64,000 bases of DNA from Geothrix oryzae (GTDB lineage Bacteria; Acidobacteriota; Holophagae; Holophagales; Holophagaceae). A program made the translations under genes and the position numbers. The notes below the pieces were generated by a model, which saw nothing but the letters and a program-made list of their open reading frames with translations, did no database searches and was not told the DNA's origin. Shown in pieces: positions 21,307 through 47,780 of the stretch; the first letter of the stretch is position 1; every line of letters starts with the position of its first letter. Location: the NCBI RefSeq assembly GCF_030295385.1, contig NZ_AP027079.1, positions 496,001 through 560,000 on the forward strand, read 5' to 3'.

Positions 21307-22779
21307 ATGTCCCGCCAGGTCGTCACCCGCTTCGCCCCGTCCCCCACCGGCATGCTCCACATCGGCGGGGTGCGCACGGCGCTGTTCTGCTGGCTGTTCG
21401 CCCGCAGGCACGGCGGCCGCTTCATCCTGCGCATCGAGGATACGGACCTCTCCCGCAGCACGGACGACAACATCCGCATCATCGAAGAGGGCATGGCCTG
21501 GTGCGGGCTGACCTGGGACGAGGGGCCGGTGGTGGGGGATCCCAGCCAGTGGAAGGGCCCCCACGGCCCCTATCGCCAGATGCAGCGCATGGACCTCTAC
21601 CGGACCAAGATCCAGGAGCTGCTGGACAAGGGCCTGGCCTATCGCTGCCGCTGCTCGCGGGAGGCGCTGGACGAACGGCGCAAGGCCGTGGAGGCCGCCG
21701 GCAAGGTCTTCCAGTACAACCGCGGGCTGGATGCCGGGAAGGGCTGCGCCGAGGCGGGCCACGACGCGAGCCAGCCGGCCGCCATCCGCTTCCGCATGCC
21801 CAAGGGCGGCGACATCGTGGTGCCGGATCTCATCAAGGGCGAGACCCACTTTCCCGCCGACAGCCTGGATGACTGGATCATCGCTCGCACCGGGGAGGGC
21901 CCCGGCGAGATCGGGGTGCCCACCTACAACTTCTGCGTCGTGGTGGACGACACCCACATGGAAGTGACCCATGTGATCCGAGGCGACGATCACCTGAACA
22001 ACACGCCCAAGCAGATCCCGCTCTTCGAGGCCCTGGGCTACGAGCTGCCGGCCTTCGCCCATGTGCCCATGATCCTGGGCGCCGACGGCGCGAAGCTGAG
22101 CAAGCGCCACGGCGCCACCAGCATCACGGAGTACCAGGCCATGGGCCTGCTGCCCTCCGCCGTGCGCCTGGCCCTGGCACGGCTCTCCTGGACCCCCAAG
22201 ATCGACGGCAAGGCGGTGGAGAGCGCCGAGGAGGAGCTGCTCACGGATGAGCAGATGATCCAGCTCTTCGACCTGGCCGATTGCCAGAAGAGCGCCGCCC
22301 GCTTCGACATGGACAAGCTGCAGTGGCTGAACCAGAAGCTCATCCAGCGGGCCTCCTGGCAGGAACTGGAGCCCCACCTCCGGCCCTTCGTGCCCGGCAT
22401 GTGGGACCAGAAGCCGGAAGCCTGGAGAGCCCAGGCCATCCAGTCCACCCAGAAGGGCAAGTCCCTGACCGACATGGCCGAGGCCCTGCGCTTCGCCTTC
22501 GAGCGTCCCGCCGCCTTCGACGAGAAAGCCGTGGAGAAGTTCATGACGCCGGCCATCAAGCCGGCTCTGGGTGAGGTCTGTGCGCTGACGGACTACGGCC
22601 ACGACGCGCTGGAGGCGGGCATCAACGCCATCTTGGCCAGGCACGGCCTCAAGACCAAGGACCTGGCCCAGGCCCTCCGCGTGGCCCTCTGCGGCAAGCC
22701 CGTCAGCCCGGGCATCTTCGATACGCTCATGCTCGTCGGCCGCGACGAGGTGGTGGCGCGGCTGGAGCGGTGGCTCTGA
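21307..22779 (+). CDS. gltX: Glutamyl-tRNA synthetase
   Basis: A 490-residue class I aminoacyl-tRNA synthetase. The HIGH-type motif is in FAPSPTGMLHIGGVRTALF (about 9-27) and the KMSKS-type motif is KLSKRHG (about 260-266). The Glu-specific connective region includes FILRIEDTDLSRS and VTHVIRGDDHLNNTPKQ. The ATG at 21307 begins MSRQVVTRFAPSPTG, as in the family. The stop overlaps the next start (TGATG). Confidence 0.95.
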   Translation: MSRQVVTRFAPSPTGMLHIGGVRTALFCWLFARRHGGRFILRIEDTDLSRSTDDNIRIIEEGMAWCGLTWDEGPVVGDPSQWKGPHGPYRQMQRMDLYRTKIQELLDKGLAYRCRCSREALDERRKAVEAAGKVFQYNRGLDAGKGCAEAGHDASQPAAIRFRMPKGGDIVVPDLIKGETHFPADSLDDWIIARTGEGPGEIGVPTYNFCVVVDDTHMEVTHVIRGDDHLNNTPKQIPLFEALGYELPAFAHVPMILGADGAKLSKRHGATSITEYQAMGLLPSAVRLALARLSWTPKIDGKAVESAEEELLTDEQMIQLFDLADCQKSAARFDMDKLQWLNQKLIQRASWQELEPHLRPFVPGMWDQKPEAWRAQAIQSTQKGKSLTDMAEALRFAFERPAAFDEKAVEKFMTPAIKPALGEVCALTDYGHDALEAGINAILARHGLKTKDLAQALRVALCGKPVSPGIFDTLMLVGRDEVVARLERWL

Positions 22780-23123
22780 TGGATCTGGAGGAATTCACCC
22801 ACCTCACCCTCGCGGTGCTGGAGGACCAGGGCGCCGCCGTCTACGCCCCCACGATCATCGCTGGGGAGACGGTCCAGGTGATCCAGGGCATCCCGGAGGG
22901 GATGGACCACCGGGCGGCCCTCCAGGAGACGGCGCTCCGCCTGGGGCTGGAGCAGTCCGACTTCTTCTTCGGCGTGCGCTCGGGCCCGGGCGAGATCACG
23001 ACGGGCTTCCACTCCCCCACCTGCACGCAGTTCCAGCGCATCTCGGCGATGCGGCAGGGCTTCGTGGTCTCCCAGTTGGACGACTGCGCCTGGTGGACCC
23101 TGGGGCAGGGCCGGGACCAGTAG
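22779..23123 (+). CDS. Conserved hypothetical protein coupled to gltX
   Basis: A 114-residue soluble protein whose ATG shares one base with the gltX stop, so translation is coupled. It begins DLEEFTHLTLAVLEDQGAAV and alternates strands and helices (ETVQVIQGIPEGMDHRAALQ, then LRLGLEQSDFFFGVRSGPG). No signal peptide, membrane span or catalytic motif is recognised. Coding is supported by the tight overlap and by composition like its neighbours. Function unknown. Confidence 0.65.
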   Translation: MDLEEFTHLTLAVLEDQGAAVYAPTIIAGETVQVIQGIPEGMDHRAALQETALRLGLEQSDFFFGVRSGPGEITTGFHSPTCTQFQRISAMRQGFVVSQLDDCAWWTLGQGRDQ

Positions 23124-23186
23124 CCGGAAGCTTTCCAGCTGCCTGAAATCTCCCATTCGCCTCCGGGCCCGGCTATGCTGGGTGCC

Positions 23187-23261
23187 ATGATCCTCCGCCC
23201 CATCCTCGTCGACCCGCGCCCTAGCACCTCGAGTGCGGGGGGGAGACGCACGCGACACTGA
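23187..23261 (+). CDS. Candidate leader peptide of the proC attenuator
   Basis: A 24-codon open frame from ATG 23187 to TGA 23261 reads MILRPILVDPRPSTSSAGGR and ends RTRH. Pro codons are at positions 5, 10 and 12 (CCC, CCG, CCT); Ile, Leu and Val codons are also clustered early. A TATGCT eight bases before the ATG could be a -10 box, making the message nearly leaderless. It is immediately followed by alternative RNA hairpins and a strong terminator before proC. Coding is inferred from this arrangement only. Confidence 0.5.
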   Translation: MILRPILVDPRPSTSSAGGRRTRH

Positions 23262-23316
23262 CCCGGCCACCGGGTTCCGACATCCTCCCCCGCCCTTGTG
23301 CGGGGGTTTTTGTTTT
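23213..23316 (+). promoter_or_regulatory. Transcription attenuator upstream of proC
   Basis: Four pairing segments can be drawn. Segment 1 (CCCGC, 23213-23217) can pair with segment 2 (GCGGGGGGGAG, 23235-23245). Segment 2 can instead pair with segment 3 (CTCCCCCGC, 23285-23293) as an antiterminator. Segment 3 can also pair with segment 4 (GCGGGGG, 23300-23306) to form an intrinsic terminator with a 7-bp GC stem, 6-base loop and TTTTTGTTTT (23307-23316). A small hairpin (23261-23275) lies between 2 and 3. The leader peptide stop is at 23261. This is the layout of ribosome-stalling attenuators such as trp. Proline is the expected signal, given proC 12 bases downstream, but an Ile/Leu/Val signal is also possible from the leader codons. 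Confidence 0.65.
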
Positions 23317-23327
23317 GAGGAGCGCCC

Positions 23328-24146
23328 ATGAACATGCACCCCGACCTGGCCATCCTGGGCTTCGGCACCATGGGGCAGGCCATCAGCGCCGGCCTGGTGG
23401 AGGCCTCCGGCTACCCCGCGGCGCGTCTCCGGGTCGCCACGCGGCATCCCGCCGGGGCGGTCCGCGCCCGGGCCGAGGCCCTGGGCATCACCCTTTCGGG
23501 CGACGCCGCCGCCGCGGTCAAGGCGGCGGAGGTGGTGCTGCTCTGCGTGAAGCCCAAGGAGCTGAAGGGCCTGTTGGCGGGCCTCGCCGCCGCCGGCGCC
23601 CTGGACCATCGCCCCCTGGTGGTCTCCATCGCCGCAGGCACGACCCTCGACTTCCTGGCCGCCCACACGCCCGAAGGCACCCCCCTGGTGCGGGCCATGC
23701 CCAACACCCCCTGCGCCATCCGCCGGGGCATGACGGTGCTGGCGGCGGGGCAGGGGGTCACCGGGGCCCAGCTGGCCCAGGCCCGGGCCCTGTTCGAGCC
23801 CCTGGGCCGGGTCATGGACCTGGACGAGAAGCACATGGACGCGGTCACGGGCCTCAGTGCCAGCGGCCCGGCCTTCATGTTCGTGATCCTCGAGTCCCTG
23901 GCCGAAGGCGGCGTCCAGTGCGGCCTGCCCCGGGCCGTGGCGTTGGAGCTGGCCGCCCAGATGACGCTGGGGGCCGCCTCCATGGTGCTGGAAACCGGCC
24001 GGCACCCCGCCGCCCTCAAGGATGAGGTCACCACGCCCGCCGGCTGCACCATCGCCGGTTTGATGGTCCTGGAGGATGGCCGGATCCGCTCCGTCGTGGC
24101 CCGCGGCATCGAGCGCGCGACGCAGGTGGCGGCGGGGCTGGGATGA
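23328..24146 (+). CDS. proC: Pyrroline-5-carboxylate reductase
   Basis: A 272-residue NAD(P)H enzyme that makes proline from pyrroline-5-carboxylate. Rossmann motif LAILGFGTMGQAISAGL (about 7-23), VLLCVKPKEL, RAMPNTPCAIRRGMTVL (about 123-139), and the C-terminal signature LKDEVTTPAGCTIAGL (about 226-241). GAGG stands seven bases before the ATG at 23328. Transcription must pass the terminator at 23287-23316. Confidence 0.95.
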   Translation: MNMHPDLAILGFGTMGQAISAGLVEASGYPAARLRVATRHPAGAVRARAEALGITLSGDAAAAVKAAEVVLLCVKPKELKGLLAGLAAAGALDHRPLVVSIAAGTTLDFLAAHTPEGTPLVRAMPNTPCAIRRGMTVLAAGQGVTGAQLAQARALFEPLGRVMDLDEKHMDAVTGLSASGPAFMFVILESLAEGGVQCGLPRAVALELAAQMTLGAASMVLETGRHPAALKDEVTTPAGCTIAGLMVLEDGRIRSVVARGIERATQVAAGLG

Positions 24147-46190: not shown

Positions 46191-46234
46191 AATCCCTCCC
46201 GTGAACACCTGTCGGAACCGCTTATCCTGAAGGG

Positions 46235-46314
46235 GTCCGAGGAGCGCTGCAGGACTCCGCCCGCATGGCGAGGGATCTCAGGCTCGGACGCTTCCGATTC
46301 TGGAACGGCGCTCA
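46235..46314 (+). ncRNA. S-adenosylhomocysteine (SAH) riboswitch
   Basis: The conserved SAH-riboswitch core is present: GTCCGAGGAGCGCTGCAGG (from 46235), CAGGCTCGGAC (46279-46289) and AACGGCGCTCAC (to 46314). P1 pairs GTCCGAG (46235-46241) with CTCGGAC (46283-46289). The pseudoknot pairs GAGCGC (46242-46247) with GCGCTC (46308-46313). Known examples switch on ahcY when SAH accumulates. A second hairpin (46313-46342) next to the pseudoknot strand may belong to the expression platform; it has no T-run, and AGGAGG-like sequence lies 30 bases further on. Confidence 0.92.
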
Positions 46315-46382
46315 CCTCACCCCGTCCGGGGTCGATGAGGTGGGTTGCCCCGCCCGTCGTTCCCGCCCTTCGTGGAGGTCCC

Positions 46383-47780
<1,398 letters not shown>

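Follow-up and report, generated by a model that had tools for sequence, protein, structure and literature searches.

The window analysed here is a stretch of 64,000 nt from Geothrix oryzae (assembly GCF_030295385.1, contig NZ_AP027079.1, positions 496,001–560,000, forward strand), whose genome is a single contig of 3.27 Mb recorded as 100% complete in the genome table. On the + strand of the window lies proC, the product of which matches TIGR00112 with a score of 262.5 bits (cut-off 196.75; E 4.6e-78). The gene and the features upstream of it are as follows.

23174..23179, + strand: -10-like element TATGCT, 7 nt 5′ of the leader ATG (read from the sequence)
23187..23261, + strand: leader ORF of 24 codons, ATG at 23187–23189 and TGA at 23259–23261, peptide MILRPILVDPRPSTSSAGGRRTRH
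23213..23227, + strand: strand 1 of the protector stem (1:2), spanning both control proline codons (RNAalifold consensus)
23214..23222, + strand: control codons Pro10 (CCG)–Arg11–Pro12 (CCT), inside strand 1 of the protector stem
23233..23245, + strand: strand 2, GTGCGGGGGGGAG, partner of strand 1 (protector) or of the 5′ arm of the terminator (antiterminator)
23261..23275, + strand: spacer hairpin ACCCGG/CCGGGT, at the leader stop codon and immediately 3′ of it
23287..23306, + strand: terminator hairpin, strand 3 CCCCCGC (23287–23293) and strand 4 GCGGGGG (23300–23306)
23307..23316, + strand: T-run TTTTTGTTTT, predicted 3′ end of a short transcript
23317..23322, + strand: GAGGAG, probable proC ribosome-binding site (read from the sequence)
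23328..24146, + strand: proC, pyrroline-5-carboxylate reductase, 272 amino acids (TIGR00112)

An earlier note on this DNA had described a 24-codon leader with proline at codons 5, 10 and 12, and the leader is as it said, the three codons being CCC, CCG and CCT, respectively. The alternative pairings that it had drawn are likewise present: GCGGGGGGGAG at 23235–23245 is complementary to 23285–23293, and the terminator pairing involves 23300–23306. The terminator before proC, which was also picked up by a terminator scan of the window sequence, is found where the note had placed it, except that 11 bases rather than 12 separate the end of the T-run from the proC ATG at 23328. A small ORF (22779–23123, ~114 amino acids) sits between gltX and the leader; it has no NCBIfam or Pfam match and, judged by eye, seems to stand before proC in many relatives.

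From the spacing of the TATGCT element, transcription is predicted to begin at the leader ATG or right beside it, giving a leaderless mRNA. One of the sequences TATGCT, TATAGT or TATATT is located 6–7 nt 5′ of the ATG in 23 of 34 proC leaders (see below), with other elements (CACACT, for example) seen by eye to precede the remaining proC leaders and most proB leaders. No sigma-70 site was found in a scan of the leader region, so any -35 element must be weak or absent.

Taken by itself, the G. oryzae sequence is only suggestive of regulation, since the 141-nt leader as a whole folds with no exceptional stability (z -1.09) and proline is equally common in other reading frames: the mean proline fraction of the leader frame is 0.15 at proC and 0.20 at proB, against 0.19 and 0.21 in the +2 frame. 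The case for a candidate attenuator is made instead by conservation, beyond the single sequence. To this end, 56 proC upstream regions from Holophagaceae were collected by ProC searches (a first set of 30 and a later 26, with a ProC fragment in genome G082 left out). A leader was seen at 17 of the first 30 loci, G. oryzae included. Across all 56, a short ORF with a Pro-x-Pro motif is found at 37, three of which (G005, G014 and G094) were set aside for want of a leader-like layout downstream. The 34 accepted leaders come from 27 of 43 same-genus and seven of 13 other-genus loci (genera g1, g17, g21 and g23), and two of them (G068 and G074) have no terminator by our rule. Sixteen same-genus genomes have ProC but no proC leader; in 14 of them proC lies close behind the upstream gene, as judged by eye. 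At two loci (L007 in G010 and L014 in G017) a T-run stub is seen between the upstream gene and proC, the leader having seemingly been deleted.

The sequence GCGCCCTAGCAC has a single exact site in the G. oryzae genome, at proC, and a motif pattern scan of GTDB genomes returned 13 stretches, all of them from Geothrix (G. campi, G. terrae, G. oryzisoli, G. limicola, G. fermentans, G. fuzhouensis, G. paludis and others) or from Acidobacteria/Holophagaceae MAGs. A detector requiring a short ORF that contains Pro-x-Pro or four or more prolines, followed within 90 nt by a hairpin and T-run, was positive within the family at 31 of 56 upstream regions for proC and 24 of 31 for proB, counts to which the members of the family do not contribute independently. 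Among 46 proC upstreams taken from Acidobacteriota of other families, seven of them from the same class, it was positive at none, although the mean GC content of these controls is lower (0.59, with 23 above 0.60), which alone makes such ORFs rarer. The controls comprise the seven loci from the class list plus 39 from other matching genomes (180 matched), mainly the best-scoring loci together with some picks; G218 was left out as too short. Within the window, 112 long ORFs beginning with ATG, many of which are not genes, were scanned on both strands; the detector was positive upstream of two, proC and an ORF on the opposite strand.

What is conserved in the leader peptides is proline at codons 10 and 12. 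Whilst the proC peptides diverge widely (for example, MILRPILVDPRPSTSSAGG, MFFHPGLPPQPGTPGAAG, MTFHLAPSPCPLPRTLGA, MYIVPRISIPHPRPFSRG, MSVAPRITMPNPNPG and MSALHFQTPRPSLPPPGAP), alignment on Pro-x-Pro gives proline in 34/34 and 34/34 leaders at proC and in 27/28 and 28/28 at proB, and the two proline columns are the only ones with two or fewer kinds of residue in both sets. Because membership of the proC set was decided by the Pro-x-Pro motif, its 34/34 figure is circular; the same-genus proB loci were included without such selection. Each proline column contains three synonymous codons; it is thus the amino acid, and not a particular codon, that is preserved. The residue between the prolines is mostly arginine, with glutamine, serine, asparagine, proline and isoleucine also seen. 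The test suggested in the earlier note, for leader proline codons conserved in related genomes, thus comes out positive for codons 10 and 12 and negative for codon 5, which is not conserved. The second control proline is CCT in 47 of 62 leaders, a codon that makes up 3% of the proline codons (20 of 675) in the 27 long ORFs of the window that were selected on codon-position GC. The use of rare codons at attenuator control sites is a known idea; here, pairing rather than rarity may be what keeps CCT in place.

When 17 proC leaders were folded together with RNAalifold, unguided, the consensus contained three elements, namely the terminator, the spacer hairpin and a 1:2 stem that runs through both control proline codons. 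Four of its 23 pairs show compensatory changes: in the protector stem, C33–G53 is replaced by G33–C53 in three sequences and C27–G57 by U–A in one, and the spacer hairpin has two compensatory pairs (UA to CG and GC to AU). In a structure drawn by hand, 95.4% of cells are paired, compared with 37–53% when it is slid along the alignment, and two pairs covary; this comparison favours the drawn structure because it was drawn from the same sequences. The antiterminator helix (strands 2:3) is paired in 94.8% of cells with zero covarying pairs. At three loci (L020, L021 and L026), strand 2 is replaced by GTGCCGCGGGACG, which, by eye, is still complementary to both strand 1 and strand 3 once the register is shifted. 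RNAalifold of 26 proB leaders recovered the terminator only, one pair of which is GC in 13 sequences and AU in 13, with no upstream consensus stem. Of the covarying stems that the earlier note had proposed looking for, the protector stem, spacer hairpin and proB terminator were therefore found to covary and the antiterminator helix was not. The note had made its attenuator reading depend on the leader frame or antiterminator pairing being conserved; the frame and the complementarity of strands 2 and 3 are both kept in most of the relatives examined.

A covariance model (R1) built from the 17 proC leaders was run on 77 family genomes and gave 23 strong matches (E < 1e-17), every one of them directly 5′ of proC: the 17 training sequences and six new ones. 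Inspection of 16 weaker matches revealed eight leaders with proline codons before proB (for example, MIPVVTINPRPSHPITGRPVGGL) and eight with phenylalanine codons before pheA (for example, TTSRRFFPFSFRTSGARVGGV after the start codon). Gene identity was checked by HMM for one pheA and one ProB; the eight proB positions match those of a ProB search, and the remaining pheA genes were assigned by eye. Seven further weak matches comprise two before proC (G085 and G083), a proB leader (L069), three pheA leaders (L063, L065 and L068, by eye) and one (L067) that resembled a plain terminator. These weak-match counts do not include stretches L162–L168.

The presence of a similar leader before proB, another proline-specific gene, agrees with the view of the earlier note that proline is the signal. 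The ProB search matched 35 of the 77 family genomes, and leaders are found in 28 of the 31 proB upstream regions cut (30 loci plus G088). At same-genus proB loci with a readable upstream region, a leader is present in 26/26 and Pro-x-Pro in 25, the other being Gln-Arg-Pro (G033, added by eye), and the automatic rule finds a terminator in 23 of the 26. The G071 proB is outside this count, as its match begins at query residue 62 and the true upstream was unread; the proB genes of G073, G089, G093 and G082 are also outside the leader counts. No proB leader was found in G074, where proB lies behind proC, or in G075. In another genus, the region 5′ of proB in G092 (L116) has a proline-rich leader, MLNLRPIPRPPFRPTGA, and no T-run; this leader could act by translational rather than transcriptional attenuation.

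Three of the features by which such attenuators are recognised are found here: codons for the product amino acid in a short ORF (proline at proC and proB, phenylalanine at pheA), an intrinsic terminator before the gene, and control codons on the strand that shields the antiterminator segment. On this comparative evidence, the proC leader is very probably a proline-specific, ribosome-mediated transcription attenuator. At proC itself, we infer translation of the leader, the stalling, the start site and the sign of the response. Transcription would start at or next to the leader ATG. When prolyl-tRNA is ample, the leading ribosome would reach the stop codon and cover strand 2, allowing the 3:4 terminator to form and transcription to end near 23316. 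Under a shortage of prolyl-tRNA, the ribosome would wait at Pro10 or Pro12 on strand 1, leaving strand 2 free to take strand 3, so that no terminator would form and proC would be transcribed. If the leader were not translated at all, the 1:2 stem would form and termination would be favoured.

Folding with a modelled ribosome was carried out on the 62 leaders tabled (34 proC, 28 proB), of which 56 entered the terminator-probability calculation and 59 a calculation in which the RNA was cut before strand 4. With no T-run or hairpin by rule, proC G068 and G074 and proB G003, G023, G072 and G092 were left out of the former, and G068, G074 and G092 out of the latter. With a 14-nt footprint, the predicted probability of the G. 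oryzae terminator is 0.82 for ribosome-free RNA, 0.08 when a ribosome sits at Pro12 and 1.00 when it sits on the stop codon. In this last state the terminator probability exceeds 0.8 in all proC (32/32) and proB (24/24) leaders; holding the ribosome at the second proline brings it below 0.2 in only 12/32 and 6/24, respectively. In the cut RNA, the 5′ arm of the terminator is paired upstream with a probability of 0.74 in the stalled state, 0.64 untranslated and 0.22 with the ribosome at stop for the 32 proC leaders, and 0.76, 0.58 and 0.28 for the 27 proB leaders; for the G. oryzae leader the value is 0.93 untranslated versus 1.00 stalled. Shuffled versions of strand 2 pair with the 5′ arm nearly as well as the real sequence (0.71 versus 0.74 at proC; 0.64 versus 0.76 at proB), with seven of 100 shuffles of the G. 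oryzae strand pairing as well as the real one. The modelling therefore supports a dependence on ribosome position and not a sequence specificity beyond G-richness.

The outcome also varies with the settings. For footprints of 12, 14 and 16 nt, the G. oryzae terminator probability is 0.80, 0.08 and 0.01 with the ribosome at Pro12 and 0.04, 0.86 and 0.72 with the ribosome at Pro10. Results for the untranslated state are mixed: RNA ending at 23316 gives a terminator probability of 1.00, whereas in RNA extended to 23327 this drops to 0.14 and the antiterminator reaches 0.86. The fold favoured there, with strands 2:3 and 1:4 paired, is also the MFE fold of the 141-nt leader. Depending as they do on footprint and RNA end, the predicted energetics agree with the attenuator model in part, without proving it.

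Other readings of the locus have to be weighed against proline-specific attenuation. That the terminator is a plain one, belonging to the upstream gene or simply unregulated, with a chance ORF lying in C-rich DNA, would account for the unexceptional stability of the whole fold, and C-rich sequence does yield proline codons in any frame; the reading frame, proline columns and pairings are kept across four genera, however, the same type of leader recurs at proB, and the detector is positive at 0/46 loci in other families, making a chance arrangement very improbable. The earlier note had left room for a branched-chain signal, set by the early isoleucine, leucine and valine codons. The window leader does begin MILRPILV, with similar starts in some relatives, and in equilibrium folding ribosomes placed at codons 1–9 likewise lower the G. 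oryzae terminator. These codons vary, however (as in MFFHPGLPPQPG, MNSFSAVHPRPST and MTFHLAPSPCPLPRT), and are missing from many leaders, and neither proC nor proB is a branched-chain gene, so that we give this possibility next to no credence.

A subtler question is what would hold the ribosome on the control codons. The attenuator could be the same and the stall could come from the nascent peptide or from slow proline bond formation, thereby reporting EF-P state or translation rate, rather than uncharged tRNA-Pro. Proline codons are inherently slow, the control site reads Pro-Pro-Pro in five proB leaders and the HPRPST core is very uniform within the main proC clade, all of which would suit such a mechanism. 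The usual pattern, however, is Pro-x-Pro (x mostly arginine) and not Pro-Pro, and the flanking residues vary between genera, unlike those of arrest peptides. Furthermore, the genes behind these leaders, proC and proB, serve proline synthesis, and phenylalanine codons take the same place in the layout at pheA. We therefore consider this variant unlikely, and return to proline supply as the probable signal. A wider proposal is that the leaderless Pro-x-Pro attenuators, with a second codon that is usually the rare CCU, form a Holophagaceae proline regulon at proB and proC that reads tRNA-Pro charging whilst avoiding EF-P-dependent Pro-Pro stalls, and that remains on proC in species without proBA; we put this forward tentatively, as a possibility that is rather doubtful in its entirety.

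Within the G. oryzae genome, the ProB search identified no proB (TIGR01027 gave three matches, all far under the cut-off) and TIGR00407 gave no match for proA, whilst an ornithine aminotransferase scored over the cut-off. Proline is therefore probably made from ornithine via ProC, in which case the attenuator would act on the sole proline-specific step left in this organism.

The classical leader-peptide attenuators are those of the trp, his, leu, ilv, thr and phe amino-acid operons. The proC leader resembles them in that its short ORF places codons for the amino acid being made on strand 1, in that a terminator precedes a biosynthetic gene, and in its predicted protector, antiterminator and terminator pairings, which exclude one another. 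It differs in its amino acid (proline) and genes (proC and proB), in the Pro-x-Pro spacing, in the predicted leaderless start and in its host phylum, Acidobacteriota (PMC2965389, 2010, cited for the phylum). Proline-codon leaders are described in PMC3641672 for Salmonella, where conditions depleting charged tRNA-Pro raise transcription downstream of mgtP (at mgtCBR) and mgtL (at mgtA). These leaders share a proline-codon ORF with that of proC, but control Mg2+ transport and virulence genes rather than proline synthesis, and mgtP has three consecutive proline codons in place of Pro-x-Pro (PMC3641672). A leader of the mgtP/mgtL type was rejected for this locus, the gene behind the leader being proC and not mgtC, mgtB or mgtA.

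In Bacillus subtilis, proBA and proI are under T-box control, in which uncharged tRNA-Pro is the signal for full-length transcription (PMC9245794). Pathway and signal are the same, but there the RNA senses the tRNA itself, with no leader peptide (PMC9245794). A T-box riboswitch at proC was rejected, as there is no Rfam T-box match at the gathering threshold, nor any in 23100–23400 at E values up to 10. Rfam amino-acid leader families also gave no match, at E 5 for six proC, proB and pheA leader loci or at E 10 for 23100–23400. In Sinorhizobium meliloti, the 5′ end reported for the trpL transcript coincides with the leader ATG (PMC7298713), so that it is like the proC leader in its leaderless start—reported for trpL, predicted here—but it has tryptophan codons and precedes trpE. 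The Rhodobacterales cysS candidate uORFC-8-2, likewise an amino-acid leader identified by computation, also combines control codons with a terminator; it differs in its amino acid (cysteine), its gene (for a tRNA synthetase) and its alphaproteobacterial hosts (PMC8632094).

The earlier note knew of no described proline attenuator of this type, and among the matches listed for open-licence PMC papers we too found no report of a leader-peptide attenuator at proline-biosynthesis genes (proC, proBA). The mechanism is classical; its use on proline-biosynthesis genes would, within that literature as matched, be new. If confirmed, proline would join the amino acids with biosynthetic attenuators, the Acidobacteriota would gain an amino-acid attenuator with an assigned signal, and the Bacillus T-box would have a contrasting counterpart on the same pathway. 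The leaders would also offer a natural test of the sensing of proline supply versus the inherent slowness of proline.

Two other RNA elements were noted in G. oryzae. Outside the window, a stretch designated L070 (G000:C1:377511-377630) contains a phenylalanine-rich leader, MPTPRSFFAFSFRTPGARVGGF, and a terminator; the gene behind it encodes chorismate mutase/prephenate dehydratase (pheA), and from its sequence L070 is probably a phenylalanine attenuator with the same anatomy as the proC leader. Inside the window, a SAH riboswitch (RF01057, 48.4 bits) is located at 46233–46320, directly 5′ of an S-adenosylhomocysteine hydrolase gene at 46335–47780 (PF05221).
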